Below are positions 7,065 through 63,555 of a stretch of 64,000 nucleotides of DNA, piece after piece. The translations under genes and the position numbers were made by a program. The notes under the pieces were generated by a model. The model was given only the letters and a program-made list of their open reading frames with translations. It made no database searches and was not told the DNA's origin. This DNA is from Rotaria sp. Silwood1 (lineage: Eukaryota > Rotifera > Eurotatoria > Philodinida > Philodinidae). Within the stretch, counting starts at the first letter, position 1; every line of letters begins with the position of its first letter. The stretch is taken from the NCBI GenBank assembly GCA_905250075.1, contig CAJNOP010000133.1, forward strand, positions 1 through 64,000, in the 5' to 3' direction.

Positions 7065-7159
7065 AGGATGTGGGTGTGGGTATCGGTGTGGTCTACACCT
7101 ACACCACATGCCCACACCTACATTCCCACACCCACATCCCACCCACACACTCACACCCT
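7065..7159. repeat. telomere-like G-to-C palindrome (T1)
   Basis: GGATGTGGGTGTGGG on the left and CCCACACCCACATCCC... on the right, with CACACCC at the right end. TA lies directly outside both ends (7064-7065 and 7159-7160), which could be a target duplication. Confidence 0.75.
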
Positions 7160-8180
7160 AACGGATTCATTGAAATTCTATTTTGTTAAAGTTGAAAAAA
7201 ACTAAATCATTTGCAATTCAATAGTATTTGTTAACATCCAAGCAATTTAAACATCGATGTGCATGATCAATATCAATACAACGTATTTGAATATGAACTT
7301 ATTTAGTTTTAAAGCTGTTAATCTATTCGTTCATTTTTTTTGCTTTGTACTTTGCTGCATATAAACATGTGATAATCATTCATAAAGTTGTTAAACTGAT
7401 TTTCTTCTATTTCAATGTTCTCACTATATTAGATATTATCCATTTGAATTCATTAGTTGAACTCAAATTTTATTTTTCCTTTTCTTTCGCTTTGGTATAT
7501 CTCGCTATGTTTCGTTATATTTGAGCTCATGTTGTTATTACATTTGAACTAGTATTGTTTAAAAAAAAAGTTTTTCATGTGTCATATGCGAATATTCGTT
7601 ATTTTTTTGCTATTACATTCTGACTTTGATGTTATTACTTGTTTCTATTCATTAGCTACACGTATTGATTTACAAACAATATTGATAGGACACATTTGTT
7701 CGTCCAATGAGGAGTTTATTATAGTGATAACGCATGTGTATATTTTCACTCGGTAGGTATCACTCTCCATGCTCTTTCATTTCTTTTTGATTTTAATGCA
7801 TAGTTTCTCTTTTTGTTCCTTTTATACATACATGTTTTATTTAATTGTTTTCATTCCTTCTGAAATAAAGATTGTGTGTGCATGTACATCAAGGCACGTA
7901 TATACATACACATATAAGGAAAGGTAAGAGAACACTAACGTATCATTTTGGCGTATGTGATAATTTCGTATCGTTTCATGGTTGATGAAGCACTGTTAAT
8001 AAAAACATCTATGTAAAGAAAAACAAATTTTAAAAGCCACTCATTTTAACGAAGCATACTTTTCGAAATCAAACGCTAACAATGTCATATAAGGTTCCTG
8101 CATTTCTTTTGGGAAACCTGTTGAACTTGTCTATCGCATTCTGAACCATCTGGATGAATTCACATTTTTGTGTTCAGTTC
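7160..8180. other. no gene seen
   Basis: AT-rich sequence with no supported ORF. Confidence 0.5.
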
Positions 8181-8265
8181 GGGTGTGGATTGAGTATGGG
8201 ATGTAGGTGGGGATGGGGGTCTTGCTTTATGTAAGGACACGATTTTAAATTCACACCCACACCCT
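8181..8265. repeat. telomere-like G-to-C palindrome (T2)
   Basis: Starts GGGTGTGG, has a degenerate G-rich left half, and ends CACACCCACACCCT, so the halves are inverted. Core of about 30 bp. Confidence 0.7.
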
Positions 8266-8440
8266 TTCGACAATATTATTTTCGCTATTTTCTTTCATTC
8301 GAGATTCCAACATCTGGACATTTTTATCCTTCGACACTTTCACTTGTCGGCACATTTATTTTTCGACATTTTCCCTTCTGCATTTTTTTCTACATCTTTA
8401 CTTTCGACATTCTTACGTTTCGCCATTAGTGGGGTGAACC

Positions 8441-8798
8441 GGGTGTGTGGATGTGCGTGTGAGTGTGGGGTACCAGTGTGATGTATCGGTGTTGGGTGCG
8501 CATCTAGGTGTGTGGGCGTGGGGTTTGGTGTCGTTGAACAGTAGATGCGCATTCGTACTCCAGATTTGGAACCAGCACTGGTTACTGTCCAGTCCGGCCC
8601 GGTGCGGAGTTCAGACCGGCCAGTCTATCAATAGCCGATCGGTCTTTACTAGTAGATTGGCCGGTAACTGGTAGACCGATTGGTCCGGTTTGATCTGATG
8701 TAGCCAGACCGGTACTGGCACTGGTTATCATAAATCTGGACCGGTTCCATTTCTGTCGCATCTACACCCACACCTATATGCACACGCATACCCACACA
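8441..8798. repeat. telomere-bracketed palindromic GC-rich block (T3)
   Basis: The left G-rich run (8441-8530) and right C-rich run (8763-8797) enclose a GC-rich island full of ACCGG/CCGGT units. The island is also inverted: GTAGATGCG, CCAGATTT and AACCAGYGC on the left recur as reverse complements on the right. It stands out from the AT-rich surroundings. Confidence 0.65.
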
Positions 8799-8949
8799 AA
8801 TAGCCACATAGAAACAGAATTATAGCGATTTTCATCCAACATCGAAACTAATCATGATTCATTCGACTCTTCTTCATCTATCGAACTAGTGTATACCAAG
8901 ATATCATTTTGAAATCTACCTACGAAGTGATCCATTGAAGACATGTTTA

Positions 8950-9190
8950 TAAGGTAACGATATATACACAGATGCCATATCTAACACACAACTCGAACAC
9001 TGCGAGTGCCATGAAATCTTCACACACACGTTAATAGGTATCCCAATACCTGAGAGTGCCACTGGTACTTGATATATACACGTCTAGTACTATCCCAAGC
9101 CGCTCTCACTAAGTGATGGTGAAGACACAATCTCAATAAACATGTAAAACGGCATCCCGACAACTGCAAGTGATGGCAAAAACTTATTTA
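8950..9190. repeat. degenerate tandem array of about 60 bp units
   Basis: About four diverged units share a GATATATACAC-like start, a CYATCCC-like middle and a GCRAGTGRTGGC / GAGAGTGCC-like end. The array lies between telomere-like block T3 and the hammerhead-like motifs. Similar short arrays are known around bdelloid telomeric Penelope-like elements, but that link is inference. Confidence 0.4.
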
Positions 9191-9530
9191 AGCACGATGA
9201 AAGCACATTTCAACAGGTAAGGGTGTAGACGAAACCTTAATACAGATTTGTATACTAGATAAGAATTATTACGATTGTTTTCTTTTTGTATAGCTCATAA
9301 CTTCTTCATTTTCAAATTTGAACGGTTTTAATCAATATATAAGATGTTGTGTAATAATAAATTCCAAACATGGCTGGTAGGTCTCTAAAGCAAGGATGAT
9401 AGCGTGTCGTGTGATTCTTTGGCTTTCTTGTGTTATCTTCTATATTCATATATTAAATATTCAAACGATCTTCTATATAAGAAGAAATCTCTTTGATATT
9501 TGAATATGAAAAAATTAATGCAGTGCTAAA

Positions 9531-9574: not shown

Positions 9575-9648
9575 AATTTCTTCACATAATACTCACCCTC
9601 ATCCTCGCTTCCATTCTCTTAATTAAATTGAAATAAAATATCTTAAGC

Positions 9649-13387: not shown

Positions 13388-14708
13388 CAACTGCGATCGT
13401 GGTCAAAATGATAAGACGACCTGTTCGAAAGTGATTCTTTGTTCGCTCTCGACTACTACACAGTTTTGAAAAAAGAAAAGTCAATGTGATTGCATACAAT
13501 CGACTATGCTCTTCTCAAAAAATGGAATCAGATTTCCTTAAAGCTACTGCCAACTTGGAGAAAATAAATCTTTATAAAAATTCTTTGATTTTTGCATGGT
13601 CAAAATTATAGGACCATCACTATTGCTATTTCGTTATTAATGAATCAGAGAGACGTTAGTTTTGCTGAAAAGTTACATATGCAGATAGAGAAGCTCCTTT
13701 TGTATATTTTGATAAAAAAGGGTTCAGAAATGATCTATGTTTGAGTTTAAAACGAAATTCTCTTAAACAAGCCAAATGGCTTGAAAACGTTGTCTGAGAT
13801 CAGTATCATGGCTAAGAAATTTTCAATTGACGTAAGAGTGATATTTTGATAACAGATTCGAATAGAAAATTTTCGCTGTTTGAAAATGAGATGTTCCCAA
13901 GCTCTGTACACTGTCTTGTTAGGGGCGTAGATATGGTGACAAAAACTAGCAGCGATTTCGTTCAAGAGTTTAAAAGTCATTCTTCTGCTGTATTGTGCCT
14001 AGACATGTATCATCTTATTCAACAATTTTATAAAATCCATGCGTTTGACAGCAGCAGATCAAGCGCATGTAAACATGTCCGAAAACATGTTGGTGTGTGC
14101 CCATTTGCATAATAAATAAAAAATATGTGCAAATGCGATTTCACAAATACAGAGGATTTTTTGTCACCATATCTACGCCCCTAACAAGACAGTGTACAGA
14201 GCTTGGGAACATCTCATTTTGAAACAACGAAAGTTTTCTATTCGAATCTGTTATCAAAATATCACTCTTACGTCAATTGAAAATTTCTTAGTCATGATAC
14301 TGATCTCAGACAACGTTTTCAAGCCATTTGGCTTGTTTAAGAGAATTTCGTTTTAAACTCAAACATAGATCATTTCTGAACCCTTTTTTATCAAAATATA
14401 CAAAAGGAGCTTCTCTATCTGCATATGTAACTTTTCAGCAAAACTAACGTCTCTCTGATTCATTAATAACGAAATAGCAATAGTGATGGTCCTATAATTT
14501 TGACCATGCAAAAATCAAAGAATTTTTATAAAGATTTATTTTCTCCAAGTTGGCAGTAGCTTTAAGGAAATCTGATTCCATTTTTTGAGAAGAGCATAGT
14601 CGATTGTATGCAATCACATTGACTTTTCTTTTCTCAAAACTGTATAATAGTCGAGAGCGAGCAAAGAATCACTTTCGAACAGGTGGTCTTATCATTTTGG
14701 CCCGACTG
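13388..14708. mobile_element. Tc1/mariner-type foldback element, 1.3 kb
   Basis: Arms of about 550 bp (about 13394-13946 and 14157-14706) are near-perfect reverse complements around a spacer of about 210 bp. The right end reads, outward to inward, TA-CAGTCGGGCCAAAATGATAAG, a typical Tc1/mariner-like terminus with a TA target (14709-14710). The left end is slightly diverged. A second GGTCAAAATTATAGGACC motif lies inside each arm (about 13600 and its mirror). No transposase is seen, and the paired ORFs across the arms are palindrome artefacts. Confidence 0.7.
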
Positions 14709-18009: not shown

Positions 18010-19691
18010 CTGTTTGGTGGTTTTTTTGTGTATGAGAATTTTGCTCAAATTATCTGTAAGGCGATGTGCATATGTTACCGAGATGTCTTCTAAAAGTAGC
18101 CGCTTCGAAAATTGCATGCCATATTTGATGAAATTTTGCCCCAAATTGAGCTAGTGATGAACTATATGTAAAGTGAACTAGAACGTCTCTGTTGAAATCT
18201 ATTCCTTTTTTTGGTTTTTTATTCCATTGTGCGTCTAGAACTTTATCACGAAATGCTTTGTGTTGATCACTTAGTAGTAATTCAGGTCCAGTTTTTCCTG
18301 TGAGAGTTTCATAGAAACGATTTATATGTTTATCTATAAACTTCTGTGGATATTTGTTTAGTAACAAGATGATTCGGATTTTTTGGATTTTTTCTATTAA
18401 ATCTTCAATATGCGAACATATGCGAGTTGCTCTGAGTACTGCTGAGAGTGGAATATTTTTAAAAATATTTAACGGATGTGATGAATGAAATGGAAGTATG
18501 TATGGTTGTGCACCAATTTTTCGATAGACTTCTGTTCAAAAATTGTGTATCTCGACACTTATTCTGATATCTAGATAATCAATCGATTGGCCTGTTTTAA
18601 ATGTTATCTGTATATTAGGATCTTTTTTTCTAAATCGATGAGTATATTGTTCATTTCTTCGATTGTCTTTTGAGCTGTTAAGAATACGTCATCTCGAAAT
18701 CTACGATATAGTTCTTTTTCTTTGTCTTGTTGTTCAACAAGAGGCTTTTCCCATTTTTTTTATATACACGTCAGCTAGAACTTGGGTACATGCTGACCCC
18801 ATTGCCCCATCTCTCGTTTGTTGAAAGAATCTTGGTGGTTGTCCTGGTAATTGAAGTGTGAAGTAAGAATTATTCAAAACATGTTTCAGTAGAATACGGA
18901 TAGTATTGATCGGAATCTCATCGTTCACTTTTCGGATGTTATACTGTCCTAACATTTCACAAACGGCCATGATTGCCTCATGTTGTGGTATCGATGTATA
19001 GAGGTCAGTTATATCAAAAGTATACAATTTTGTTTTCCCTTTATTTGGATTTTTTTAGTTCATTCAAAAGATCGATTGGGTTAGTTAAACTATATGGTGT
19101 TACTCTATCGAAGATAGGTCTTAATATTCGATCCAGGAAAGATGAAATTTTTGAAATAGGAGATTTTATTCCAGCTACAATTGGACGTAGTGGTTCTCCG
19201 ATTTTATGATCTTTGGGGTTATAGTAGAGATGTAGAAGTTCTGAATCAGTTCGAGATGGTCTTAATTTTTCTAGATATTTGGATGGTAAAAGTTTTCTTT
19301 ATATTAAATCAATTAAAAGTTCTTCGGTGCTCTTGATCATGTCTTCTTGCGGTGATTGATCGATCTCCTTATAAGCATTTATATTCGACATGTATTGTGC
19401 TGATTTTTCTATATATATGTCGGGTTTTCCTAGATGAAAAACTTTAGATTTATCAATTTGTCGAAAAATGACTGTTTGTTCTTTTTGGGCTTTCTTCAAA
19501 TTTCCTAAAATCTTCAACATTTTTGGATCTGTTATCTTTTCTTTTGACACTATTCCTCCAATTTCTTCGTCAATACGTTCGCTAAAACAATTGACTATTC
19601 CTAGATGTCGACATACTGTCTTTGTTTCTCGTCGCCATGATGGTGTGGGTGTGAGTGTGGTTGTGATTGTCGAGGATTGAAACATCCACAC
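18010..19691 (-). mobile_element. Penelope-like retroelement, Athena-like, decayed
   Basis: Minus-strand pieces of a Penelope-like reverse transcriptase. Upstream (19299-19600) lies a thumb-preceding segment with VIFRQIDKSKVFHLGKPDIY. Next (about 19040-19240) is the region with NPKDHKIGEPLRPIVAG. Next (18734-19027) are MYTFDITDLYTSIPQHEAIM and GAMGSACTQVLADVYIKK, the catalytic palm region. A C-terminal piece (18050-18367) has KYPQKFIDKHINRFYETLTG. No GIY-YIG endonuclease is seen after the RT, as in telomere-associated Athena elements of bdelloids. The element is broken in several places and looks like an old fossil. A telomere-like miniature palindrome (T4) lies at its 5' side. Confidence 0.75.
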
Positions 19692-19698
19692 ACACCCT
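19642..19698. repeat. telomere-like G-to-C palindrome (T4) flanked by CATGAT
   Basis: Starts GGTGTGGGTGTGAGTG and ends CATCCACACACACCCT, 57 bp. Direct repeats CATGAT flank it at 19636-19641 and 19699-19704, the clearest target-duplication candidate among these blocks. It sits at the 5' side of the Penelope-like remains. Confidence 0.7.
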
Positions 19699-20175: not shown

Positions 20176-22621
20176 ATGGAATATCTATGTCGTCAATTGA
20201 CTGATTTATCCGATGCAATTCTTTTGATTATTTTCAAAAAGTGAACAATGTTGCACTACTTTATTCCTTGTTCGGTGTTAATAAACGATTAAATAATATT
20301 TTAAATGATCTGATTTTCACAAATCATTTGAGTTTAATGAACCATTACTTGAATGATTATATTTATCGATTACCTGATCCAATACTTAATCAATTCTGTT
20401 CACATATTTTATCTAAAATTCATCATAAAATTAAATGGCTTATTCTTGAATCATTATCAATGGCACGTATTCTTCTTTCTACAAATTATCCTAATTTAAA
20501 TGGACTTGGTTTATATTATTTTGAAATAGGAAAGGCAACACATTTCTTTACTGGTAATATATTTTACTTTGATTACAGGGTGTCTCATAAGTTGTGGCAG
20601 ATTTTTTTAAATCTAATTTTTGATGATAATGAATACAAATCAAACTCAAACTTACACGTATCATACAACTTAACATGTACTTTTATTTCATATATTTTAT
20701 TTGAATTTAATCATTGGATATACAAAAAAATAAAGAAATTGGTACATGTGCAAAATAAGCACACCATCAATGTGTTACAATATATATACCCCGACAAAAG
20801 TTTCACTCTGTATTTCTCATATATTGTCACTATAAAAATAAGTTATTTTAAAACTAATTACATATTCTGAAAGCTCGCGGAGTTTTCTATCATTCTGTAG
20901 AATTAGGTTTTAGTTTTGACCTTTTCATTACCAAAATAAATTGAAGACAACGAAGGCACCCTCATGTCCAGATTCCCAGACTTGATCTTTCCTTCGTCAT
21001 CAAAACTAGTTTTAAAAATTTTTCATCCGTATAGAATGATCTGTATGAAAAAGTAACTATAGATTCTGATAGAGCTTAAAATTCTCTATCACCCTGTCTA
21101 TTTACTTATTTTCTTGCGTTTATAGATTGAAATAAAATTGAATACAATGAATATACTCCGAATCGACTAGCCCAAAAAATTTGCATTTTTTTTCGCTACT
21201 TAAATTTAAGACACTGTATTAATACATAATATCATAGAGCATTTCAAGTGCTATCAGAATGTGTGATTTCTTTTGTAAAAACTTACTCCCATAGGAATAG
21301 TAATTGGAGAAAAAACTAACAAAGTAGCGAAAAAATGCAGACTTTTGATATTTGTCAATGGAGGGTATGTTCATTGAATTTGTTTATTTTCTTGTATATT
21401 CAATGATCTAATCCAAATAAAATATATGAAATAAAAGTACATGCTAAGCCGTGTCATATGTATAAGTTTGAGTTTAATTTGTATTCATTATCATCAAAAA
21501 TTAGATTTAAAAAAATCTGCCACAACTTATGAGACACCCTGTATCATTAATTCTAAAACAAATAAGAAGTATATTAAAATCAGTAACACTGTGCATCGTT
21601 GGATACTCTAATTGATTGATAAATTATGAATATTTATTTATATCCGAAATAAAATATTTTAAATAATATCAGAATGTAAAGAAATGATCAATTTGCACAT
21701 CTGAGTTACAAAGACATCGTTGATGATACTGAATAAATGTCGAAAAGAGATAAAAGTTAAGAATCGATGCTAGATCAGAATCAATATTAAAAATGATTCA
21801 TTTTTTTCTCGATATTTTTATATTAGAATTGCATGTCAGTTTGGAGAATTTCACTGACTGCATTTATTTACTTGATGGACTTTTCAATCAACTTTGTAGA
21901 CTTCATGTGAATATTTCTACAATTAGTTCACATTTAAAAATCGATAATAAAGTAGATTGTTTTATTTAATATCTAATTGAAACGAGTCAATAATATTATC
22001 TTTTAGAAAAATCTCCGTAATTAAAGATGCTTTGTGCTATACTGTGATCTGGTTCTAAACGCATATGATGGAATAGTTGTACCACTTCTACATCGAATGT
22101 AGAATTTAGAAGAACTCACTTCGAATTTTGCAATCGACCGCAAAAAAATTTCTATTGATGGAATCCATTTGAAGGATATTATCAATCATATGGAACGATT
22201 AAAGAAATTTACATTTAATATTCATTCAAGGATTCATCTTGATGTTCAAATTGATTTGTCATCAAATGAAAATATACAAAACACATTCAGAAATTTTAAA
22301 TCTAATCAAATTATTTCTTGTGTTGATTACTTTTCAGAGGTAGCAAAAGGTTAATGTCTTATTTATTTATATCCATATACATTGAAAGAGTGCAATAAGA
22401 TAACAAATAATTTTTCAAGTGGATTATTTGAATGTGTTCGTGAAATATCATTATTTGATGAACGATCTTTTGAACATGAATTTTTTCTTCATATTGCTCA
22501 ATCATTTCCATTGATCAAACAATTAACTTTAATTAATCAAAAACCAAAAAAGAATAAACCCTCAAGGTCTTTATCAGCATTAAGTCGATCAGCAAAAACA
22601 CTAAAATTAAAGATAAGATAA
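20176..22621 (+). pseudogene. F-box protein pseudogene, bdelloid type
   Basis: Starts MEYLCRQLTDLSDAILLIIF, the F-box, then continues one frame over with NVALLYSLFGVNKRLNNIL (single-base loss near 20243) and DPILNQFCSHILSKIHHKIK. It is interrupted at 20576 by a 966 bp MITE. Family-typical sequence resumes near 21835 (VSLENFTDCIYLLDGLFNQL) and again from about 22085 to the stop at 22621 (ISIDGIHLKDIINHMERLKK; LFECVREISLFDERSFEHEF; FPLIKQLTLINQKPKKNKPS). F-box proteins recruit substrates to SCF ubiquitin ligases; the second half is the variable recognition part. Stops and frame changes separate the blocks, and 21544-21830 is AT-rich filler, so the gene is dead. Confidence 0.8.
20576..21541. mobile_element. 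mariner-type MITE inside the F-box pseudogene
   Basis: Terminal inverted repeats of about 165 bp start CAGGGTGTCTCATAAGTTGT at the left and mirror this at the right. TA flanks both ends (20574-20575 and 21542-21543). 966 bp, no transposase. The 209-residue ORF at 20241-20870 is an F-box fragment running into this element and is not a real protein. Confidence 0.85.
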
Positions 22622-22706: not shown

Positions 22707-22777
22707 AGGGTGTGTGGGTATAGGTATAGTTGTCATTGTTCGAATCATCTCTGCACCCACAGCCATATCCACAACCT
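22707..22777. repeat. telomere-like G-to-C palindrome (T5)
   Basis: AGGGTGTGTGGGTATAGG on the left and CACCCACAGCCATATCCACA on the right, ending ACCT. Lies 85 bp after the F-box pseudogene stop. Confidence 0.65.
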
Positions 22778-25648
22778 CTGATGAACAGAGAACTGCAATC
22801 TCTATCGTTACTGTAGATGTAATCATTGTTGTTAATTTATCTTTTTGAAAATTCTGGTGACCTAGCCGATGATACCTCTGGCTTCGTCAGTAGTTGCATT
22901 GCTGACGAAAGACAATCAAGAAGTGGGTGCGAAACGTTGATTATCATTGTTTGTCGATGAAGATCCCTTATCTTGGCTAAGGAGGACACTAAGTCAATAT
23001 TTCAAGCCATATTTATTTAAATAAAGAGAAGGACGAGTGAGAAAAGAAAGACAAAGATGAAAGTCTAGTTTATCTACATCTTGCAAAAACTACAAAGAGT
23101 GACAACTGAAGGTGAGTGTTTATTGATGAGAATGAGCTCGTCGATTGATGCATCTTCGATGAACATATTAAACTTTGTGTTAGTAGAGTGTGCGGTCCTA
23201 ATTTTGCTGTAAGAAAATTTGACTTCTCAGTATTTAATCTATTACTCGACTAGATGACAACGCACAAAGACTACTTGTAATTCCCGGTATAGAGGAAACA
23301 TTTCTGCATCAATTGATAGGCATCTAATCATAAATGAATGAGTATCTGTTTCATGAGAATTTCGACAATACAAGCAGATGCCATTTCTATTATGTTCCTA
23401 ATTTGCCCATTTCCACAAAAAACGGCATGTCTCTCAGAAAGAAATCCGATTTGATAGAACAGAGTGTCTCTGTTTAATTGAGAAGAAATCATTCAAGTCA
23501 TTTTGTCACGGTGTATCAATGCCTTTTTTCTCAAAGCAAATCAAGTTCGTCTTCTCCACAGTCTTGTTCATGTAATACAGCTTTTCTTCTAGGAGACATG
23601 CCATTTTACGTGGGAATGGCAAATGAGAAGACAATAATTCAAAGCGTAAAAACATTAGAAACACAACAGAAAGTGTAAAAAATTGCGCCTGTTCATATTG
23701 ATACGATTCTCACGGAAGAGAGATTCATTCTTTTATGATCAAATACATATGAACTGACGTAGAAAAGTTTGTTCTATTCTGAAAACTATACAAATAGTCT
23801 GTGTACAATGTCAGATAGTCAAATTATAGATCAAACACAGCAAAGACAAACTTTTGTAGCAGAATTAGTACCACTCACTCTAAATAGTGTCTTAGTTGAG
23901 AGTTGATTCAGCTGAGACAATGAGAAACATTCGTTTGAAGGTTCCCGAAGTACAAAGCGTTATTCAGCAGATATGAGCGAGACATAGTAATCATTTCTGA
24001 GTTCATATTCGCTTATAGTCCAAAGAGTATCAAAAGTGAAGGAGTTATTGACCGCCGAAGATTTCGTTGGAGCCACAAGCGAACACTAAGGTCAATTCAG
24101 ATTTTCCACCACTAGTTTCAACAGCCATTACTGTCAGTTTGAGATGTTCAAAAAGCCTGATTTGTAAGTCGAGAGACAAATAACAGATACTTATGAACAT
24201 AGGTACACGTCAGCTAGTCAATGATCTCCAATGCATTTTTACAGTTTGACAAACTGAATATGCTTTTGTTGAACTAGAAAAAAAGAAATCAATTCGATCC
24301 AACTATGTTAAAATCTAGTATATTGATATCGGTTGTGTTTTTCAGGTACTAGAGTCGATACAATTGAAGTCACAGTGAATAAAACAAAAGGTGTTACTGG
24401 TATTAGGACAAACGAAGCGAAAATTCAAAATGAACGAAACTGGAAAATCAGATAAGAACACAGGTATGTTCCATGTGATAGTCGGTCAAGACATTGTTTA
24501 TCTTTTTCTCTCGACAGGGATTTGAATCGTTTTCTTAACAGTAGTGTACAAGTCGAAAACTAGACTCAGCTGAAAAAATGACTTTTCAAGTTTTAAATTT
24601 TTGTTCTCGTTCCGCAGGTTCGTGTACCACATCCTTTCGGTGCGCTCATCAATTAGCTTTTTGTGTTGACTTGATGTCTGAATAAACAGTATTTTCTTTT
24701 TCGCACCTACTCTGCAAACCTCAACGGCCCTGATGGTGCCCCACGGCAAAATATGTTTTGAGTTTTGTTCACAAATTTTATTTGAGAATATTTTTAGCTA
24801 CATCGAATATATCGAATTCTTCCTGTATAATTTACTTAAATGGCATCCCCGCAAAGATCACGAATGCAAATTTAATGTCTGTAGTTCATGAAATACAGAC
24901 GGCCAACATTTCATCGAAAATCCAGAGAGAGAAGCAAACTTGAATATAATGTTTTCAAACTTCGAAACTCGTCTGTTCGATAGATCCAACTTTTCGAGTG
25001 CTACACTTATGAAGCGCACTAAAACTACAATTTTTTGAAAAATTTTGAAATAGAGGATAGAAAACAATTACCAGTCCCTCGAAAAAGATGCGCGCATCAG
25101 AATACGGTAAGTCGCAGAAAATAAATTGCACTGAATGTTTATCACTAAATGTGTGTGTTTCTGGACAAAAAAACCTACAAAGTAATACAAAGTAACGATG
25201 AAAAGTGGCCTTAATCTTCAAAAACCAATCTTTTTTCAGAAAGTAAAAAAAAATCACTTTAGTCTCGTCCAGACAGAACCAACAGTGGCTGAAGTATTGA
25301 GAAAGTTTCGAGAATCATAGAAATACTGTCACACAAGTTTCGTTCAGATCGGTCGATTAAGATAAGCTCATGTTCTTCTTATCCAAAAACACTCAGAAGC
25401 GACGACAACCGTACAAGTGGATCTGTAAATGTTTTACTTATAACCAAAAAGAAATCTGACGTTTTGATATCGCTAAAATAGGAGATATGAAGGCAAGAGG
25501 CATCATTGGAAGGACATCAAAGTGACTCGTCGTTGTTTTCACGATAACAGAACGTGTGACATTTGTTTGTGATCGCCCAAGGAGATCACCAAAATCTTCT
25601 GATCAAGAATAGTCTACTACGATAAGATCTACTTCTGTTTTATTGTAG
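22778..25648. other. no gene recognised
   Basis: Several open frames (23478-23678 plus, 24498-24749 minus, 24858-25257 minus) have no recognisable domain. At about 22905-22945 there is CTGACGA...GCGAAACGTTG, which resembles the 3' signature of Penelope-like elements but lacks a stem. Confidence 0.4.
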
Positions 25649-27072: not shown

Positions 27073-27155
27073 AGTGTGTGGGTGTGGGTGTGCGGGGTGT
27101 GAGCTTGAGATGTGGGTGTTAGCGTCGATCTTCTTATGACCCACACCCATACCCT
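27073..27155. repeat. telomere-like G-to-C palindrome (T6)
   Basis: GTGTGTGGGTGTGGGTGTG on the left and ACCCACACCCATACCCT on the right. Confidence 0.75.
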
Positions 27156-27201
27156 GCATGTTCACTGTGTCTTTGATTAAATGAAATATTTTTGCAGCAT
27201 C

Positions 27202-27253
27202 GTGTGGGTGTGAATCTTGTTTGCACTGGCATTGAGACCCACACTCACACCCT
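27202..27253. repeat. telomere-like G-to-C palindrome (T7)
   Basis: GTGTGGGTGTGAATC on the left and GACCCACACTCACACCCT on the right, only about 50 bp after T6. Confidence 0.75.
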
Positions 27254-29422: not shown

Positions 29423-29950
29423 GAAAAAGAATTCTCTTCTATTGTAAATGATGAAAACAAAACAAGACTCGTTCTCTATTATGTTTTGCATTCGAACGGC
29501 AAAAGGTAAAGAAAAGAAAGAGAATTTTATGTTGAATGCAAGCATGTGATATTGTTATTACGATCTTTCAGCTTAACACACTTTCTTGATAACTTATTTT
29601 GTTGTGTATACTTGTCGAAGAATAATATAACATCATAGTGGTCAATTCAATTGAAGCTCGTCAACCAATTTTCAGATAGATGAGAGACTAATTTGTTCTG
29701 AAAATGACTCTTTTAATGTCAATAAATACCTCATGCGTTTATTTCTTTGACATATTGTAATAAAAAAATGAACAACGAACCTTGTTTTCTCTGGGTAAGT
29801 GTCCATCGAACAATGAATTTCAGCATTATGTTGAATCAAAAAACGCAATTATTAATCTTCTTTCACTGATATATCCTATGTTATTGTAGTAATAGAAAAA
29901 ATTCTATTTTGATTTGAGACAATTTATAACAAATGCTATTTCGATTGTGA
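29423..29950. other. no gene seen
   Basis: AT-rich spacer. Confidence 0.4.
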
Positions 29951-30012
29951 GATGTGGGTATGGGGGTTATTTTACTGCATTCAAACACACACCCACGCCT
30001 ACATCCGACCCT
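29951..30012. repeat. telomere-like G-to-C palindrome (T8)
   Basis: GATGTGGGTATGGGGG on the left and ACACACACCCACGCCTACAT on the right. The core TTATTTTACTGCATTCAA is shared, inverted, with T9. Confidence 0.75.
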
Positions 30013-30092
30013 TTCTAGGAAAATGATGCGTACTTTTTTCCACAGGATATTAGCGAGTAGAATCGCGTAAAAAATCAAAAACTTTTTGTCTT

Positions 30093-30148
30093 GTGGGGTG
30101 TAGGTGTGTGTTTGAATGCAGTAAAATAACCTCCGCCCCCAACACCCT
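30093..30148. repeat. telomere-like G-to-C palindrome (T9), inverted copy of T8 core
   Basis: GTGGGGTGTAGGTGTGTG on the left, core TTTGAATGCAGTAAAATAAC, CGCCCCCAACACCCT on the right. The core is the reverse complement of that in T8. Confidence 0.75.
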
Positions 30149-31738: not shown

Positions 31739-31757
31739 CCACCCACATCCACACCCG
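31739..31757. repeat. telomere-like C-rich half (T10)
   Basis: CCACCCACATCCACACCC, with no G-rich partner nearby. It marks the breakpoint of the WWE-ART gene. Confidence 0.55.
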
Positions 31758-37474: not shown

Positions 37475-37552
37475 AGGGATGGGTGTGGGTGTGGGTGTGG
37501 GTTGGTGTGGGTGGGTACTCGTGAAGAGATATTAACACCCACACCCACACTC
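37475..37552. repeat. telomere-like G-to-C palindrome (T11)
   Basis: AGGGATGGGTGTGGGTGTG on the left, one of the most regular TGTGGG runs in the window; AACACCCACACCCACACTC on the right. Confidence 0.8.
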
Positions 37553-38789: not shown

Positions 38790-38901
38790 AGGGTGTGGAT
38801 GTAGCGTGTGGGTGTCGGTGTGGGCTTATTGAAGTGACTACTGACCCACACCCACACATCCCCATTCACACCCATACCCACCTCCACCACACACCCACCC
38901 A
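38790..38901. repeat. telomere-like G-to-C palindrome (T12)
   Basis: GGGTGTGGATGTAGCGTGTG on the left and a long C-rich right half with GACCCACACCCACACATCCC and CCACACACCCACCC. Confidence 0.8.
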
Positions 38902-39762
38902 GACCATCCATCTTTGTGTTATAACAATGTGTAGGGTATGTTAGTAGTCTAGAAAATGTCTGATCTGTGCGGCTTAAACCCTGGAACAAGTCAGAGAATT
39001 TGATCAGATTTAAGCCTAAAATTTGTTGAGTCAATGTGCAAGAAATCATACCCAACTTTACCTCTGGCTGCATGCAGGATTTCAAGTCATGATAGAGTAA
39101 ATATAGATGCATTCAGTGAGATCGATTGATTTTTTTGAATAATTAGTCGTCTCATTAACGAGTCAACAGACCTTTTTGTGACGTTTAATTACTAGTATTG
39201 TCACTGTCTTAGTGATCTTTCTTTCATCTATTCAATAAAAAAGGAAAGAAGAGAATGCCAAGTTATTGTATTACTTTTTTATTCGTTGCAAACAATAAAA
39301 ATCTGGATTGTTATCTGAATCATGCTGCTGACGAATACTCAAGACATCTTTAAAGAGCTTAGTCACCTTTTGAAAAAAGGATTTTAGTTACACGATGTGG
39401 ATACCATGAAAAAATTAACGAAAAATTAGGGGCGTGGGTATGGTTGCGACTAGAGAGATCCCACAACGACATCCTGTAAGAATAAGTTGAACAGATAACC
39501 TACACTTCCAGCTATCGTTCATTCTCTTGCAAAAAAATAACTTATGAAAAGACGACGAGTTTTTTATGCGGTTAATGAGAATCGGTGTTTCAAAGGTGAG
39601 AAAAAATGACACTTATATAGCGCACAGTTAATAACTTGTGTAAACATACTCATTCACAAGCATTTATTTTATACATGCATAACGTTCCAGCGCGAATATA
39701 ATATTAGGCAGATACGTGAATGTTTTTTATTATGCAAAACTGTGTTTATTCTCTGGTAGTTC
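38902..39762. other. no gene; degenerate telomere-like block near 39429-39476
   Basis: GGGGCGTGGGTATGG then GATCCCACAACG is a weak G-to-C block (T13). No supported ORF. Confidence 0.35.
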
Positions 39763-43152: not shown

Positions 43153-43212
43153 GATGGTGTGGATGTGTATATGAATCTTTTCTACATTTACATCCTGACC
43201 CACACCCATACT
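43153..43212. repeat. telomere-like G-to-C palindrome (T14)
   Basis: GATGGTGTGGATGTG on the left and TGACCCACACCCATACTC on the right. Confidence 0.7.
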
Positions 43213-44452
43213 CAACATTGCATGTGAAATCAAATACTATTTTGCATGATAGTGACTTATGTTTAAAAGATTCGTATTTTTTCCAACACCAAAAACTTCC
43301 ACAATTTCACTTACTAATTGCGTAACACCAAAGCATTCACAATAAAGAAAAAAAACCTGAATAAGAAAATCTAAAGCAGTCAAGAAGTTATAATCTATGG
43401 AAAATATGCCAATGTCATTCAAACCTATCTTATGAATAATGAGTAGTGGAGGATTTTTGACTGCGAATGTAGGCGGCTGTGTATGCTAGGTTTGTTTTCA
43501 CACTTGTCGTAATATACAGCCATAATCATACACATCTTCAAGTTAATGTTTTCTATTCGAGGTTCAAAACTATCGACCGAAGCAAGTAAAGAGAGAAGGT
43601 GATATTTTTGCCGTACAATGCAATATTTGCCCAATCACAAGTTTTATAGTTGTTGAGAAAAAAACTAAATAGAGGAGTAGAGAACTTGTCTATCTTATTA
43701 TTATCATATATATTGTTACATTCAGTGTAAATTTTTTAAAGTAAAGCTCAAATTTAGTATGATTAAATCGCGGAATCTGATACGATGCATCATTAAGTAT
43801 TGATTATGAACAAAAGTTTTCTTGAAAACCTCGATGAATGCTGAATTATTTTAAAAAAAAAGCTTATCATTTGAAAAGCTATCTTTGTCTCCAAACATAA
43901 TTGGAAAAAGTCCATATATTTCTCACTGTTTCAGAACGTTTCGAAAAATGATCAGAATAACTAAATAGAGAAGGGTTTCCAAAAACGCCGAAACAAGTTT
44001 CTCTCATCACGAAAGTTGTATGAAAACTTGCAACAAGTTTTCTTTGGAAAATAAAACGTCAGAATATTCAGAAAAGAATTATTGCATGTTTTCCAGTGGC
44101 AAAAGTTTCCTTCTATTTGAATCTTCAAGCATGAAAGCGAACAAATGGAAACAACAATTAAAATGTTTCAACACCGTTTGCTAAATTCTTGTCTGCTTGA
44201 GTACTAGTTCTTGTAAAATAAAAGGTTTTACTTTCGAAACAATATTTCTGTTATTAGACAAAGAAAACGCTGTAGCATATACGTAAGATTGATAAACTTT
44301 GCATGAATACTAAAAAATGGAAGAAGGTTTAAGTAGCATCTAGTTTATAGGATAAGCTGTAAAAATTTTACAACTTCAGAACAACAGTTTGTGATTATTG
44401 ATTTCATTCTTAGTCTAGTTGGAGCGGTAGATTATTCTGTATGCATCTGCAG
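43213..44452. other. no gene recognised
   Basis: Minus-strand frames at 43237-43422 and 43425-43634 show no domain. Confidence 0.4.
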
Positions 44453-46350: not shown

Positions 46351-47127
46351 GATTTCAATTTAAGTACTAGACGTATGTGAAGAATAGTGAATCTACAGTC
46401 CAAAAAGCAGTATTAAAATACAACAAGGCTTTGAGATTTTCAAAATGAAAAAAATAAAGAGTTTGAAATAGATCTATTTACTGATATTCTATGACAATGA
46501 TTTATGGTTTGATTTGTTTTATCATCAAATTAGTCAGTTGGAAATTTTTTCATATTGTTTTTCAGTCTATAATCGGATTTTTTGTTTATTTTGGTATTGG
46601 TTCATCTTACTGCATTAATTGTATTTATCATATGCAACTTCAGATACATCTAATTGTCTACAAATAAAAAGAAATCAAAGACGTACTTCTCTGTCAGATG
46701 ATCATCAAAAATAATTATGTCATTCTTATAAAGAATAACTATGAAACTTCTCAAGTTTATAAGGATATATCGATGATTCATATGCATGAGTCAATGTCAT
46801 CGGAAGTAGTATATGAAGGTGTAAGGGACAATAAAGGATTATTCCAAGCAGACTCTTGACAGATCCTTTATCATTAGAAATTAATTTCCAACAATTGACT
46901 AACATTATTTTTTTTTCATTTATTTTTGTATATTCAAATTAAAGAAAGTATTTTCGTAAGTATAGAGAAATATTCATAATTTCGATGAATCATGAAATAA
47001 AAAAGGATCGAATATGTTTTTCATTTTCTAGTCGGAAAAGAAGTTATGGTTTGGGAATCTAATGCTGAATAAACATTTCCAATTGAAATACTTAATCTCA
47101 GTTTCGCTATAATTTTTCTGGTAACAC
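46351..47127. other. no gene seen
   Basis: AT-rich upstream region of the TRAF gene. Confidence 0.4.
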
Positions 47128-48193
47128 GAATGATGCTCCCCGGACACTTGCTCCCGCGACACTTGCTCCCCGGACAATTGCTCTCCAACGACAATTGCTC
47201 CCGCGACATTTGCTCTCGTGACATTTGCTCCCCAATGACAGTTGCTCCCCGGACATTTGCTCTCCTATGGCAATTGCTCCCTGGATACTTGCTCCCTGAT
47301 GACATTTGCTCTCCTATGACATTTGCTCCCCGAACACATGCTTTCCAATCACATTTGCTACCCGGACACATGCTGTCCAATCACATTTGCTCCCCCACTT
47401 CACTTGGCCTTAAGCTACGGCTTTTTTGTTGACAAATTCAACATAATGGGCGTGGATGTGGGTGTGGCTAGGGCGTAGGTGTGGGTGTGGCTAGGGCGTG
47501 GGTGTGGGTGTGGCTAGGGCGTGGGATGTGGATATGGGTATGAGGTGGGTGTGAGCGTAGGTTAGAGCCCTTCGGGTCCAAGATTTTTGGACCCGGACTC
47601 GGACCCGTTTACCATTTGCTACACCTGCACCCGGAACCGGACGCGCTTGTTTAAAAAATGTTGAACCCGGGCCCAACCCGGAGGGTGTGGGTGTGGATGT
47701 GAATAAAGGAAAGATCCATATTTACACCTACCCACACCCTTTTCCTATTTTATTTGTTCTATGTTCTTCATATATTCATAGATCAATACTACCACCTTTC
47801 GAAATTCTGATAAAACTGCAGTAAAATTAGCTATATATTTAAAATTAATTGGTGAATTTTCAGGAATCTTAAATTCTGCACGAATTTCTAATCATCTCAT
47901 TCTTTTCATAATTTTACCAATTTTTAAGTCTTTAAAAATTATATTGAATTTGTCAACAAAAAAATCGTAGCTTAAGGCCAAGTGAAATTGGGGAGCAAAT
48001 GTCATCAGGGAGCAAGTATCCAGGGAGCAATTGCCATAGGAGAGCAAGTGTCCGGGGAGCAATTGTCCTTGGGGAGCAACTTTCCTTGGGGAGCAAATGT
48101 CATGAGAGCAAATGTCGCGGGAGCAATTGTCGCTGGAGAGCAATTGTCCGGGGAGCAATTGTCGCGGGAGCAAGTGTCCGGGGAGCATCATTC
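47128..48193. mobile_element. foldback element with minisatellite arms
   Basis: The left arm 47128-47447 and right arm 47939-48193 are inverted copies. Both start GAATGATGCTCCCCGGACAC and are mostly tandem units of about 20 bp of the form GGGGAGCAAKTGTCC (about 16 left, 13 right). The inner ends share GCTTAAGGCC..., then TTGAATTTGTCAA. The loop is 491 bp and starts exactly with telomere-like block T15. No transposase is present. The ORFs over both arms are artefacts. This is like foldback elements whose long TIRs contain internal repeats. Confidence 0.7.
47448..47740. repeat. telomere-like block with GC-rich core (T15)
   Basis: A G-rich run with TGTGGGTGTGGCTAGGGCG units (47448-47560), then a GC-rich core with GGACCCGGAC units, then a complete small palindrome at 47682-47740 (AGGGTGTGGGTGTGGATGTG ... 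CTACCCACACCCT). The core segment GTGTGGATGTGAATAAAG recurs in T21. Nested in the loop of the foldback element. Confidence 0.7.
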
Positions 48194-48889
48194 ATGGATT
48201 CAATTTTTCTATACATTTCATAATGAAATAATCCAGAAGTTTCTTCTATTTAAGTCATTTTTGCAAAAATATATTTGTTACTAGTAGAGATGCAATGCCA
48301 AGCTTTTTCTGAATGACGATATTTGGATATTTTTTTACAACAATCCTCAATAAAGCGAACGTACAACAGTCAACGAGATCTTCGTTTATTTTGTACCTTC
48401 TCCGATCAAAAGCCTCAATTTGAAAAGCTAATGTTTTTCATTTATAAAAAGAAACCAAAGTGACGAATTCAGACAAAACTGAGCGAAGTTATTAGTAAAT
48501 TATGAGCATGAACATGATCTATACAACCTTACTCAATAATTATTAGATCCGAAAGAGCTCTAAATTTTGATCATAAGGATGTGGATGTGGGTGTAAGTGA
48601 ACAGAATATCATATCTACACCTACTCACAACGTAATATTTTTTCTTTTCTCTAACTTTGAGAAGGAAAAAATAATGACACATACTTTAGGATGAAAGATT
48701 TTTTTACCAACTTCATCTCCGAACATAGAAATTTATTTAAAAAAGTCTTAACACTATTAGATACTTCCTAGAAGTCCATAATGAATATTAGAATAATATA
48801 TTAATCAAAATTCGTCATTGATTCATTATAATCGAAATAAATCGTATCTACAGAAATATTCTTTAAATGAATTACAATCAATACAACAA
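48194..48889. other. no gene; contains telomere-like block T16
   Basis: AT-rich apart from T16 at 48576-48631. Confidence 0.4.
48576..48631. repeat. telomere-like G-to-C palindrome (T16)
   Basis: AGGATGTGGATGTGGGTGTA on the left and CTACACCTACTCACAAC on the right. Confidence 0.65.
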
Positions 48890-49695
48890 GTTCGAATAAA
48901 TAGTCTTATTCAGTGATCATATTTTACGGCAAGTTATGAATTTATAGCATATGCTGGTTGATTTCCATGTAATGTGAATGATCGAGTTATATGTATGTGT
49001 TATAATAGAATTTATCATGAATGGACAATGACTGATGAAGTAATTGAGAATACACTTGATAAAGATGTTGAACCATCTCATCCTGAAATCTCTCGTCGAG
49101 AAACAACAGTTTCTAATACTACTTGGAAAGAAAATTCACCAACTATTGAAAATTTGGTTCGCGTAGGATTCTTTAATGTTAGCATTGATAATTCAGTGAC
49201 ATGTTTTTATTGTAATGGTTCATTACATGAATGAAGTCCAAATGGCAATCCTCTAAGTGAACATGCTCCATGGTTTCCTCACTGTACTTGTGCTAAATAT
49301 CTATGTGGCAAACAATTGTATGGAAAAATTCAAATAGCAAAAAACCGACTTTTCTTCGTTTACAATATTTATTAGCAGTTATTAAACGTTGTTTTGAAGA
49401 TCAATTCAAAATTAAAAATGATAAATTTAAATCAGATACTGATTTATCAATTAGTTTGTCGTATCGATCGAAAACAAATTGATATTATTCAAGGTTCTCC
49501 AGAAAATTTTGTTATTCCCTCTCAATCACGAAAAGAATCATTTGGTGAATGTTTCATGTCTTAACTACAGTAAAAGAATACGCATGTGCCTTGTGGACAC
49601 ATATATACTTGTGTATCTTGTGGAGATGCAATTCGATCATGTTCCATATGTAGGAAAAAAAATTCAAAGTTTTATAAGAATTAATTCTTAAACTT
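48890..49695 (+). pseudogene. inhibitor-of-apoptosis-like gene (BIR-BIR-RING), decayed
   Basis: The first BIR is seen as FIAYAG, a stop, then FPCNVNDRVICMCYNRIYHE W. The second BIR is NLVRVGFFNVSIDNSVTCFY, CNGSLHE, a stop, then SPNGNPLSEHAPWFPHCTCA. A linker follows, then in another frame a RING-type tail with TTVKEYACA and CVSCGDAIRSCSICRKK. In both BIRs the stop is TGA at a conserved Trp position. IAP proteins bind caspases through BIR domains and act as ubiquitin ligases through the RING. Frame changes between the BIR and RING parts, plus the stops, show a pseudogene. Confidence 0.75.
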
Positions 49696-50060: not shown

Positions 50061-50109
50061 AGGGTGTAGACGTGAGTGTCAATATTCTTTCTTTAATACC
50101 CACATCCTC
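50061..50109. repeat. telomere-like G-to-C palindrome (T17)
   Basis: AGGGTGTAGACGTGAGTGT on the left and ATACCCACATCCT on the right; the shortest block. Confidence 0.6.
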
Positions 50110-50761
50110 ATGATCTACTGCTTTCATGTTCGGCACAATTATATAAACAGTAACTGTGTGTTTATAGCGAAAAACCAATTAGCAATGATTCCATTTTGAA
50201 CTATTGGCGAATTATTTAATTATGAAATTTGATCTCAACCACATGATGCTAAATTTACAGATGTATCGCTCATTGAACATCAATTAGGAATATTCAATGC
50301 AAAGTACGTAAAATACAGTGTACTTAACAAAGAATAAAAGTCGAAAACTTGCAATGATGGATAAAATTTCTACTAGATTTAGCGAATCAACACAAAGTGT
50401 TAAACAACAAATATGTGTTGGTTAAATAAGATTGTTGTAATACTCATATAAAAATCTTTCGCTCTGAAATTATTCTCTGTCTGCATTGCAATTCATTTTG
50501 TTGCGTCTGAAGACTTATGACACACTATTGTTTTTTTACTTTGACGGTGAATGATAACAAGAACATGCAAATAAAAACACTACAAAAAGAACCTAGACAA
50601 TTCGTTTCATCTTCATTAAAGTTTGATGCGGCAAGGTCTTGAATACAGTCGCAGTGAGCGCGCTAATATTCAATAGAATTACTAAGCTCTGATTCGTAGT
50701 ATTCTTTCACGCAAACGGGCTTGTACAAAAACTGTTATGAGTAGATTTGGATTTGAAAAAA

Positions 50762-50838
50762 AGGATGTGGGTATAAGTGGGGTTCTGGTATTCATCCTCA
50801 TCTACACCACTTCTCGACTACATTCACACCTCACACCG
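50762..50838. repeat. telomere-like G-to-C palindrome (T18)
   Basis: AGGATGTGGGTATAAGTGGG on the left and CACACCTCACACC on the right. Confidence 0.6.
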
Positions 50839-52333: not shown

Positions 52334-52379
52334 AGGCTGTGGGGTGTAGGTCTCCTTTTCATCTATGCCCACAGACCCA
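52334..52379. repeat. telomere-like G-to-C palindrome (T19)
   Basis: AGGCTGTGGGGTGTAGG on the left and ATGCCCACAGACCC on the right. Confidence 0.6.
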
Positions 52380-53330
52380 ACGTGAGCATCTATCCAGAGG
52401 TTTTCAACTGATCAATCGCTTCTTTATCGGATGCCAGTGAGTTTTAAGTTATCGACCATGTTGATTTCGAACATAATCATGAGAAACTCACTTAAACTTT
52501 TATATGCTGGTTCTCCCGGCTAACAAACTTTCGCCAAAATCATGTGTGACCTACTCAGATTATAGAGTTTATCGAATTGTTTCTCAGACAACAATCTTTT
52601 CTGTTTTCCGAGCATGAATCTTAAGTAAAATAATATCATCTTGAAAATTTTCACATTGAAGCTTTGCCATACATCGGTTGGATGAAATAAAATGGTTGTA
52701 TTTTCTGTAAAAGAAACTGATTAGAAACAGAGAAATTTACTGTTTGTGGCAAAAAGCTTGTTAGCTTGGAAACTAGCGCATGAAGACCTAAGAGAATTTC
52801 TGATTGTTATAGTCGGAATCAGTTTGGTTCATAACTTGCGATGTACTAACTTCCAATGGAAGCATGATTAGTTAATTGAAAATGTTCTCTCGTCAGAATT
52901 TTTAGGACTGCCTTATTTAATGTCAATTCAATTGTCTATTCACCCTAGAATGTATTCCCAGATAACTCAATTCTTGGGAAAAAAAAGAGCGACTTCAACG
53001 GACAACAACATCTCGAGATACATCAATTCAACCAAAGCTTATTTTATTCTTATCTATTGTTTATCTTTTGATTCTATCCGCATACAATTAAAGTAAAAAG
53101 CAAAAATAGTCAAACTCGAAAGAATGAATTTAATATCTTATTTTTTTATCTCACATAGAAGGATTTGCTTCTCGAACACATACATGAATGATTTTTCTCA
53201 TATTTACGGAACAAATAAGATCTAAAAAAAAAAGATTTTCTATTTGAACTAAGTAGAAAATAAAACGAACATCATGTAACGTAGAATTGCCATAAGAAAA
53301 GAAAAATAGCAAATATACATCTTTGAAATT
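52380..53330. other. no gene seen
   Basis: No supported ORF; the downstream flank of the Rap-like gene. Confidence 0.45.
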
Positions 53331-57700: not shown

Positions 57701-58910
57701 ATGGAGAAAACCAATATTTTGTTTGATATAGTGGAAGCATGAATGAGTTCAATCAATCCCAAGTCTTACTTATTAAATGCGAGTATACTCTTGGTGAAAG
57801 ATGTGCCAATTATTTTATGTTTCTCATATGCAACATAGAGAGAAACATGTTTTCTTAATAACAGAAAAAAAAATACTTGGAAGGCAGAATTGAGAGAAAA
57901 AACAGAAAAATGTTCGCATTACGGAAACAAGCTAATATAGATATAGTAAGATGATAAGAAATGGGGCTTTAACCTTGAGTTTTTAAAAGTTAAAGTTTAA
58001 AGTACACTTATGTTAGCTTTAAATTTAACTTTAAAGTAAAGCAAAAATGCCAGCCCTAGTACAGATAGCTCGACTAAACGATGAATATCACCTCTTTGGA
58101 GCTAGTCTGTAACGAAAATAAAATTAGATAATCTGAATAGAAATGTCTACCGTGACCAAAAATGGTTTTCTATCGTTATGTCAAAATCTAGCAATGATAG
58201 AATGATATTCAAAAATTATCATGTTGAACTACAACAAACATATGAAAATGGAAGCCAAGTATAGATTTGTACATACAAATCGCATACCTCTTCACTCACC
58301 ATACCAAAAGGTTTTATAGTAGAAACATAGCCTATTAAATCGAACTGAAGTCATGAATTCAAAAAATCAAGCAAAGGCATAAATGATTGTTTCAAATCCA
58401 TAAGAGGTACATTACAGAGAAGCCGCAGCATGATACATCAGAAAAGTTAGCAGCAAATTCAAGGCTTTTCTGCTGACATTTGTTCCCGAATCTATACTGA
58501 CTTTCTGATCAATTGTCCTGTGTGCATAACTGAATTCTCTATCTATTGATGTCAATTTTAAAGAAAATCATCGACCAAAAAGTGGGACTTTGGGCCAAAA
58601 ACCAGGTATTTTATCCTATTCTCTTAGTAATTCTTGCTGATACTTGCTCATGAATATCAGCTAGCCTTCTAGCCATTTGTGCTGGGTGCAAAACAAAGAC
58701 TGAATCGAGTAAGAAAATATGGATTCGATTCCATTCATACCGACAACAACATAGAATTCCTTCATTCTCATTAATAAAATTCATCTATATTACGTATAAA
58801 ATTTTACTCATGTTTTAGTGTGTCTGTAAACTAAATTTCTCCATTTAGAGAAATTTGAAAGTCAGCCAGAGAAACTATAGTATACACATTAGGAATTGGG
58901 CTTCACAGGA
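54797..58910. other. long AT-rich stretch, no gene seen
   Basis: Only short frames such as 55440-55622 and 57540-57731, without domains or splice support. No telomere-like block and no clear inverted repeat. Confidence 0.5.
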
Positions 58911-59508
58911 GTGGGCTGTGGATGTGGGTGCCAAGTGTTCTCACACCTACCTCAATAACAGAACATTTTTGTTCTGTTTGGGGGAAAAATCAAGAGGAAA
59001 AGCGTAGTTCTTTCGTACTTCACAACCCAAGCAGACAAGAATTTGGAAAAACGCGTTTAAACCCTACAATCGAGAACCACGATTGTGACCCATTCACGCT
59101 CAAAAGCAGAACGCCGTTTTTCGCGTTTTTTGCGTTTTTTTGCGTTTAATTTTCACTTTTAGAGCGTGAAAACGGCGAAAAACTCCAGTTTTTAGTGTTA
59201 AAACGTGCCTTTATTTCTCAAATTTTCTCAAATTTAAAAACAATGCGTTTTAACGCTCATTTTTAAAATTTTTCACCGTTTTCACGCTCTGAAAGTGAAA
59301 ATTAAACGCAAAAAACGCGAAAAACGGCGTTTTGTTTTTGAGCGTGAATGGGTCACAATCGCGGTTCCCGATTGTAGGGTTTAAACGCGTTTTTCCAAAT
59401 TCTTGTCTGCTTGGGAAGTACAGACGTACGCTTTTCCTCCCTTGCAATCAAGCGAAGACTCGTACTCACACCTATACCTACGAAGACACATTCACATTCA
59501 CATCCCTT
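58911..59508. repeat. telomere-bracketed long palindrome (T20)
   Basis: A G-rich telomere-like block (58911-58953, GTGGGCTGTGGATGTGGGTG) lies on the left and a C-rich one (59463-59508) on the right. Between them is a hairpin with arms 58992-59185 and 59262-59447 that mirror each other, from CAAGCAGACAAGAATTTGG through AACGCGAAAAACGGCG. The CG-rich arms contrast with the AT-rich background. Confidence 0.75.
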
Positions 59509-62411: not shown

Positions 62412-62630
62412 AATGCCGCAGTCACAGATGGATATTCAATATTAGAAGAATATTTTTGTTGCAACTCTCCCAAGTGCAATCAACATCCCATACATCCAAA
62501 GTTGGCTACTGAATGTTAAACATGCGACTCACATATACCCAGATGTAGCATATTAAATACATCGAGTCCATACGTTTATGAATCTGGTTCGTCGGACCCT
62601 TTCGAAGCATGTGCTAGAAGCATTTAAAAA
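62412..62630 (+). pseudogene. second Ly6-like cysteine-rich fragment
   Basis: After an acceptor-like CTCCCTAG at 62409 the frame reads YNAAVTDGYSILEEYFCCNS, then PKCNQHPIHPKLATEC, a stop, then TCDSHIPRCSILNTSSPYVY. CCN-x3-CN again resembles the end of a Ly6 domain and ECxTCDS the start of another. The stop between them and the lack of flanking exons suggest a decayed relative of the gene at 60.0-60.5 kb. Confidence 0.4.
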
Positions 62631-62684
62631 GAACAAAAAAACATGATATTCTAATATCTAAAATCATACTATTTTAAGACAATA

Positions 62685-62769
62685 AGGTTGTGAGTGTGGG
62701 TGTGGGGTGTGGATGTGAATAAAGAACATAGGCACACCCTGATCCATACACACACACCCCCACACCCAA
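62685..62769. repeat. telomere-like G-to-C palindrome (T21)
   Basis: GTTGTGAGTGTGGGTGTGGG on the left and ACACACCCCCACACCCAAC on the right. Contains GTGTGGATGTGAATAAAG, also present in T15. Confidence 0.75.
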
Positions 62770-63059
62770 CGACAAACCACACATGCAATATATGTTGTTC
62801 CTTACGGATTTTCACAAAATTTGACGTGTTTTGGATAGCCAGATGATTTTCTAGAGGTAAATGGAGTTTTAGAAAATGAAATTTATGATGAAAGCAGAAA
62901 TACATAAACAAGGTTTCTCTCTCATTGTGGGGGCCGTGAAAAGCATTCTGCCTAGTAAGTCTATTATGATCATAAAAAATCTCGTCTAAGTTGCTAGGCC
63001 AAGAATAAAATTTTTATTTAAAGTAATAGTAATTATCAAATGACAAGTTCATATACATC

Positions 63060-63184
63060 CTCAGACGCTCACCCACTACAATACCTCCAACCACATATCC
63101 TATCGTCATTTTCACCCTCACGCAGACATATATCTACACGCATATCCTCGCACAACCCTAGCAATGAGCTCTCTCACACCCTTA
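63060..63184. repeat. degenerate C-rich telomere-like stretch (T22)
   Basis: CGCTCACCCACTACAATACC..., CATATCCTCGCACAACCCTA, CTCTCACACCCTT. No G-rich left half is visible. Confidence 0.4.
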
Positions 63185-63483
63185 ACTGATAATCTCACAC
63201 AATGCATCGTTTCACAAGAAACGCCATTTTGTTGTTGTTGAATATTTGCCTCCAGCATTGTTAGAAGGCCAGTTTCTATTAACTCACTAAGAAATATAGC
63301 TAGTTACGACTTTTTCTGTTCTGTTTCTTCACAGGCTCGTAAATTTTTTTTTTTGTCGTTGTCATATAATAAAAATTACGCTAATACAGAACGCAAGAGG
63401 AAAAAAAGCATTTGCTCCTGAGAATAAATATGTGTGACACCGGAGTCATTCTATCGGTAGTTTTGCGCAGCACGCACCCATGA

Positions 63484-63555
63484 GAGTGTGGGTATGGGGT
63501 GTGGGTGTGAGTGTAAATGAAGACAAGGCGATACCCACACTCACACTCCACCCTT
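63484..63555. repeat. telomere-like G-to-C palindrome (T23)
   Basis: AGTGTGGGTATGGGGTGTGG on the left and ACCCACACTCACACTCCACC on the right. Confidence 0.75.

Follow-up and report, generated by a model that had tools for sequence, protein, structure and literature searches.

Paired G-rich and C-rich telomere-like tracts in a rotifer genomic window as candidate scars of break repair

Short telomere-like tracts recur throughout this locus, and they raise the question of why a G-rich tract is almost always followed by a C-rich one, and of what process could have placed such units at so many sites. The sample was one 64-kb window, the whole stretch of DNA analysed, in which tracts were found by cyclic local alignment to TGTGGG, the telomere repeat of A. 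vaga (PMC7943196), or to CCCACA, with a score of at least 16.

Order and pairing of the tracts

The alignment revealed 22 G tracts and 20 C tracts in the 64-kb window, compared with about 1.3 and 1.2, respectively, in Markov-1 shuffles. At this score, 15 adjacent pairs ran from G to C, and the two C-to-G adjacencies (27154-27202 and 30006-30092) each lay between neighbouring units. When weaker partners were allowed (gap of at most 45 nt, summed score of at least 28), 20 G-to-C pairs were obtained against about 0.1 in shuffles, and each of the three C-to-G pairs called consisted of one strong tract and a weak match nearby that is due to chance. No genuine C-to-G pair was present in the window, the called ones being chance or inter-unit cases, and the order of G-to-C versus C-to-G was 20:0 (sign test, p = 1.9e-6). 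The control hexamers TGGTGG, TTGGGG, and GTTGGG, of the same or similar composition, yielded 1-3 pairs versus 16 for TGTGGG at matched score. The two-sided arrangement was the rule here (20 pairs), not a single tract in one orientation, and a C partner was present for almost all strong G tracts. The density was about one unit per 3 kb, and the spacing of units along the window did not depart from random, giving no indication of clustering. Certain arm boundaries were adjusted manually, and edges are fuzzy by a few bases, such that the spacer lengths below vary slightly.

7066-7158: G-spacer-C unit; arms 7066-7091 and 7095-7158, spacer 3 nt
8181-8264: G-spacer-C unit; arms 8181-8220 and 8252-8264, spacer 31 nt
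8440-8808: long-spacer variant; G tract 8440-8531, C tract 8764-8808, core 232 nt and CCGG-rich
19642-19698: G-spacer-C unit; spacer 16 nt, abuts the 5' end of a Penelope-like reverse-transcriptase remnant, CATGAT on both sides
22709-22778: G-spacer-C unit; spacer 14-20 nt
27073-27155: G-spacer-C unit; spacer 18-19 nt
27202-27253: G-spacer-C unit; spacer 24 nt
29946-30006: G-spacer-C unit; spacer TATTTTACTGCATT, inverted copy at 30092-30147
30092-30147: inverted copy of unit 29946-30006; outer flanks differ
31740-31756, minus strand: unpaired C tract
37472-37553: G-spacer-C unit; spacer 19-21 nt, G arm with three uninterrupted TGTGGG repeats
38791-38898: G-spacer-C unit; spacer 17-19 nt
39430-39474: G-spacer-C unit; spacer 12-13 nt
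43156-43214: G-spacer-C unit; spacer 22 nt
47447-47562, plus strand: G tract without C partner; has a 23-nt higher-order unit and lies in a foldback-element loop
47683-47739: G-spacer-C unit; spacer 20-28 nt, in the loop of foldback element 47125-48196
48577-48628: G-spacer-C unit; spacer 13-22 nt
50062-50110: G-spacer-C unit; spacer 15-18 nt
50763-50837: G-spacer-C unit; spacer 20-41 nt, varying with the limits set for the weak C tract
52335-52385: G-spacer-C unit; C arm weak, spacer 11-16 nt
58908-58952: G-spacer-C unit; spacer 11 nt, immediately left of palindrome 58994-59439
about 59464-59508: C tract without G partner
62686-62782: G-spacer-C unit; spacer 15 nt
63062-63158: weak C tract without G partner
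63486-63553: G-spacer-C unit; spacer 16-18 nt

The initial annotation had described about 20 telomere-like blocks, always G-rich then C-rich. The pair counts and strand-order statistics bear this out, equal numbers of C-to-G blocks were not found, and the extent it gave agrees with the spans from 7066 to about 63553. Its inventory was right as to the paired order, but a few tracts have no partner, and the spacer, typically 11-31 nt, had gone undescribed.

The G-to-C order is also what telomere fusion yields, and the units could accordingly be read as true chromosome-end fusions or as captured telomere-capped fragments. However, about 20 such sites in 64 kb are far too dense for fusions, whose tracts would be joined directly and not separated by a spacer, and captured fragments would yield the C-to-G order that is absent here; this reading is regarded as extremely improbable.

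In addition, viral and bacterial collections were scanned by pattern and by protein, with no rotifer relatives detected. The viral contigs contained 54 G-to-C versus 36 C-to-G pattern matches, mostly GC-rich chance, and none of them carried the repeated pattern of the rotifer window.

Arms and spacers

The arms were 11 to 92 nt long and about 80% identical to the telomere repeat. For the register test, which uses the same arms as the pair count, all 42 arms were re-aligned with 8 nt of context, and the null was simulated with the same alignment. The outer edge lay at the A|GGGTGT register in 21 of the 42 arms versus 5.7 expected (p = 1.6e-9), equally on both sides (11 G arms and 10 C arms), and A preceded GGG in 18 of these 21 (p about 0.001-0.003). 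The inner arm edges were in random register (p = 0.63). A polymerase with a set template start that can stop anywhere would produce both the fixed outer and the random inner register; a constant outer edge would equally be expected of a transposon tip.

The two arms of a unit appeared to be independent of each other. Their similarity was no higher than that between arms of different units (p = 0.42), their lengths were uncorrelated (rho 0.28, p = 0.23), and their identities to the telomere repeat showed no significant within-unit correlation (rho 0.24, p = 0.31), such that an equal age of both arms is unsupported. A fold-back origin, with one arm serving as the template of the other, was rejected, the arms being unequal and not alike, and a whole-genome-amplification artefact was considered unlikely because the arms are not inverted copies. 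Among the substitutions from TGTGGG, G>A made up 96 of 172, distributed as 24, 21, 21, and 30 over the four G positions, and this even decay fits the expectation of neutral decay in an AT-rich genome, not of a conserved core.

The spacer was 3-31 nt long (mean 16.4, SD 5.9) when the long 232-nt case at 8440-8808 was left out, and its coefficient of variation of 0.36 was narrower than anything produced by an exponential null of equal mean in 20,000 trials. Its base composition was genomic (about 32% GC), no k-mers were common to the spacers of different units beyond chance, and an AAT motif at the inner edge was weak (p = 0.05). A search for templated filler within 300 nt detected none, the longest matches summing to 121 bases versus 119.9 expected.

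These properties bear on whether the units are functional elements, namely paired inverted sites recognised either by a telomere-binding protein or by a CACCC-box (KLF/Sp-like) one, or else a boundary or origin based on a G-quadruplex, with spacing under selection. Such an element would suit the narrow spacer, the fixed order, the partnering of almost every G tract, and the density of about one per 3 kb, and GGGTGTGG presumably resembles a CACCC box. However, binding sites at a set distance should fix the inner edges, so the random register there argues against paired binding sites, the fixed register being found at the outer edge and not next to the spacer. The 11 to 92 nt range of arm lengths, the even decay of the G positions, and the inconsistent position of units relative to genes also speak against function, which is judged unlikely; if functional, the units would represent a frequent motif of regulatory or structural role, composed of telomere sequence.

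Another candidate is a very short non-autonomous DNA transposon with terminal inverted repeats mimicking the telomere, for which the inverted arms and the constant outer tip (A-GGGTGT) could be cited. Moreover, one unit is present twice: the spacer and inner arms of 29946-30006 and 30092-30147 match in inverted orientation at 35 of 38 bases, with the spacer kept and the outer flanks unrelated. The duplication of this unit together with its spacer could be the behaviour of a mobile element and counts against the scar reading developed below. Nevertheless, this pair is the sole exception to the absence of common interiors, and with arms still about 80% identical to the telomere repeat, the interior of a master copy should remain recognisable between copies, which is not the case. 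No target-site duplications were found beyond chance in either a loose or an anchored test (p = 0.21), and BLAST of the 300-nt flanks returned no family, leaving neither a flank nor a core in common. The single flush 6-bp direct repeat, CATGAT at both sides of unit 19642-19698, may be chance. Furthermore, the arms are of unequal length and are not mutual copies, and the matching inverted termini that characterise MITEs and TIR elements were not seen, only the outer tip being constant. A transposon is therefore thought quite improbable, and the family of miniature hairpin elements proposed in the initial annotation does not survive these comparisons of interiors, flanks, target sites, and arms.

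Genomic surroundings of the units

The following genes and remnant were recognised in the window, which also contains ankyrin, BIR-like, and LRR-like coding fragments. Gene names derive in part from Pfam, and the BIR-like, LRR-like, and B-box-like designations from a reading of the translations.

18053-19670, minus strand: Penelope-like reverse-transcriptase remnant, broken; RVT_1 at E = 0.019, 5' end abuts unit 19642-19698
25.6-26.6 kb, plus strand: NHL protein gene
30.8 kb, plus strand: WWE protein gene
39.8-42.3 kb, minus strand: UNC-93-like transporter gene
44.5-45.7 kb, minus strand: TRAF/MATH protein gene

Units were found in the gaps of divergent, convergent, and tandem gene pairs alike, outside every recognised exon; placement at promoters or terminators was rejected, all kinds of gap being occupied. 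The BIR-like fragment at 48962-49300 (plus strand) has an in-frame stop and is probably a pseudogene. No Rfam family at its gathering threshold and no tRNA was detected in the window, the weak Rfam matches being to palindromes and chance. A weak match to U2 spliceosomal RNA at 1468-1608 (plus strand) scored 32.1 bits, below the 46-bit gathering score.

Several other repeats were also observed. A near-perfect palindrome at 13401-14702 has 545-nt arms, 98% complementary and 212 nt apart, and other inverted repeats lie at 5512-6214, 20574-21543, 33567-36349, and 58994-59439. The foldback-type element at 47125-48196 has inverted arms made of degenerate arrays of the 15-bp unit TGCTCCCCGGACATT. Both a telomere-like G array and a single G-spacer-C unit are found in the loop of this element. 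CCGG-rich degenerate segments at 8548-8760 and 47563-47682 both lie between telomere-like tracts, in AT-rich surroundings.

The unit beside the 5' end of the reverse-transcriptase remnant (18053-19670) raises the possibility that the units are remnants of telomere-associated Penelope-like elements (Athena/Terminon). In A. vaga, truncated 5' ends of these elements receive telomere repeats and their 3' ends carry (ACACCC)n (PMC6431247). However, such elements carry G tracts (or C tracts) at both ends, never G then C, the spacers of 3-31 nt contain no element sequence, no hammerhead ribozyme was found, and a Penelope-like element stands beside telomere repeats at unit 19642-19698 only. An origin from these elements is considered very unlikely.

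Two-sided break repair and comparable systems

The explanation put forward here, which we hold at not quite an even chance, is that the units may be decayed scars of breaks that received a few telomere repeats at each end before being rejoined. Two 3' ends would be exposed by a break in the chromosome or by two opposed nicks, and telomerase or a telomerase-like reverse transcriptase would start on each of them at its default template position; a few repeats would be added per side, after which the sides would be rejoined and the chromosome restored. The fixed G-to-C order would arise because telomerase synthesises the G strand only, extending it outward from the 3' end on either side. Favouring break scars are this order, the near-total coupling of the arms, the fixed outer and random inner register, and the independence of the arms, together with the lack of common spacers or flanks, the lack of target duplication, and the G>A decay. 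The sparing of exons and the occurrence of units in 5'-5', 3'-3', and tandem gaps also favour break scars, and the unit capping the 5' end of the Penelope-like remnant is counted for them. The A before GGG might represent bases copied from beside the template, by analogy with vertebrate telomerase insertions.

Plain end joining accounts poorly for the spacer, and plain telomere fusion leaves it unexplained. The scars of end-to-end telomere joining suggested in the initial annotation agree with the G-to-C order and with the outer register being fixed, but not with a non-telomeric spacer of 3-31 nt between the tracts. Under break repair, the spacer could be non-templated or captured filler from end joining, and the narrow spacer lengths count against random filler. 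Alternatively, it could be original DNA: a staggered break would leave 5' overhangs of about 10-30 nt that re-annealed after 3' extension. The product would be flank-G-spacer-C-flank, the target would not be duplicated, and the narrow range of spacer lengths would follow naturally.

Telomerase of vertebrates is known to add a few repeats at breaks before the chromosome is made whole again; random sequence is sometimes added as well, and a few nucleotides can be copied from the bases adjoining the template (PMC2246262, PMC8537989). In A. vaga, NHEJ genes are up-regulated after rehydration and radiation (PMC10809525). A bolder and more doubtful proposal is that the animal routinely telomere-protects both broken ends before rejoining them, probably in recovery from desiccation, in which case tens of thousands of scars would be expected genome-wide and the narrow spacer would reflect overhang length. 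If the units are scars, each would record a break repaired in the past and would have a direction, a register, and an age that can be measured. Break repair in desiccation-tolerant asexual animals would then be readable from sequence, and telomerase would be shown to act habitually, and not just rarely, on the two sides of internal breaks.

Among known systems, the Athena/Terminon elements presumably share both the host group and the repeat, and telomere repeats are added to their truncated ends by priming on exposed 3' ends; unlike the units, which have no element between the arms, they carry the same strand at both element ends (PMC6431247, PMC3846280). The human 2q13 fusion site shows the same head-to-head, G-then-C order, whereas the units have a 3-31 nt spacer in place of a direct junction and are far too many. 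The TBE elements of Oxytricha likewise have telomere-like sequence at the ends of a mobile element, but their ends are C-rich first, and they carry a transposase gene and are accompanied by duplications, features that are not seen in the units. Vertebrate short ITS and TERC-ITS (PMC2246262, PMC7215372, PMC8537989) resemble the units as short internal tracts at unrelated loci, without a transposon signature and often with extra junction sequence, and telomerase is implicated in vertebrates. They differ in that a single tract in one orientation is usual, only 3 of 41 TERC-ITS loci being two-sided, and in density, which reaches about one per 3 kb in the rotifer. Two-sided telomere scars would be a new twist on a known oddity of repair.
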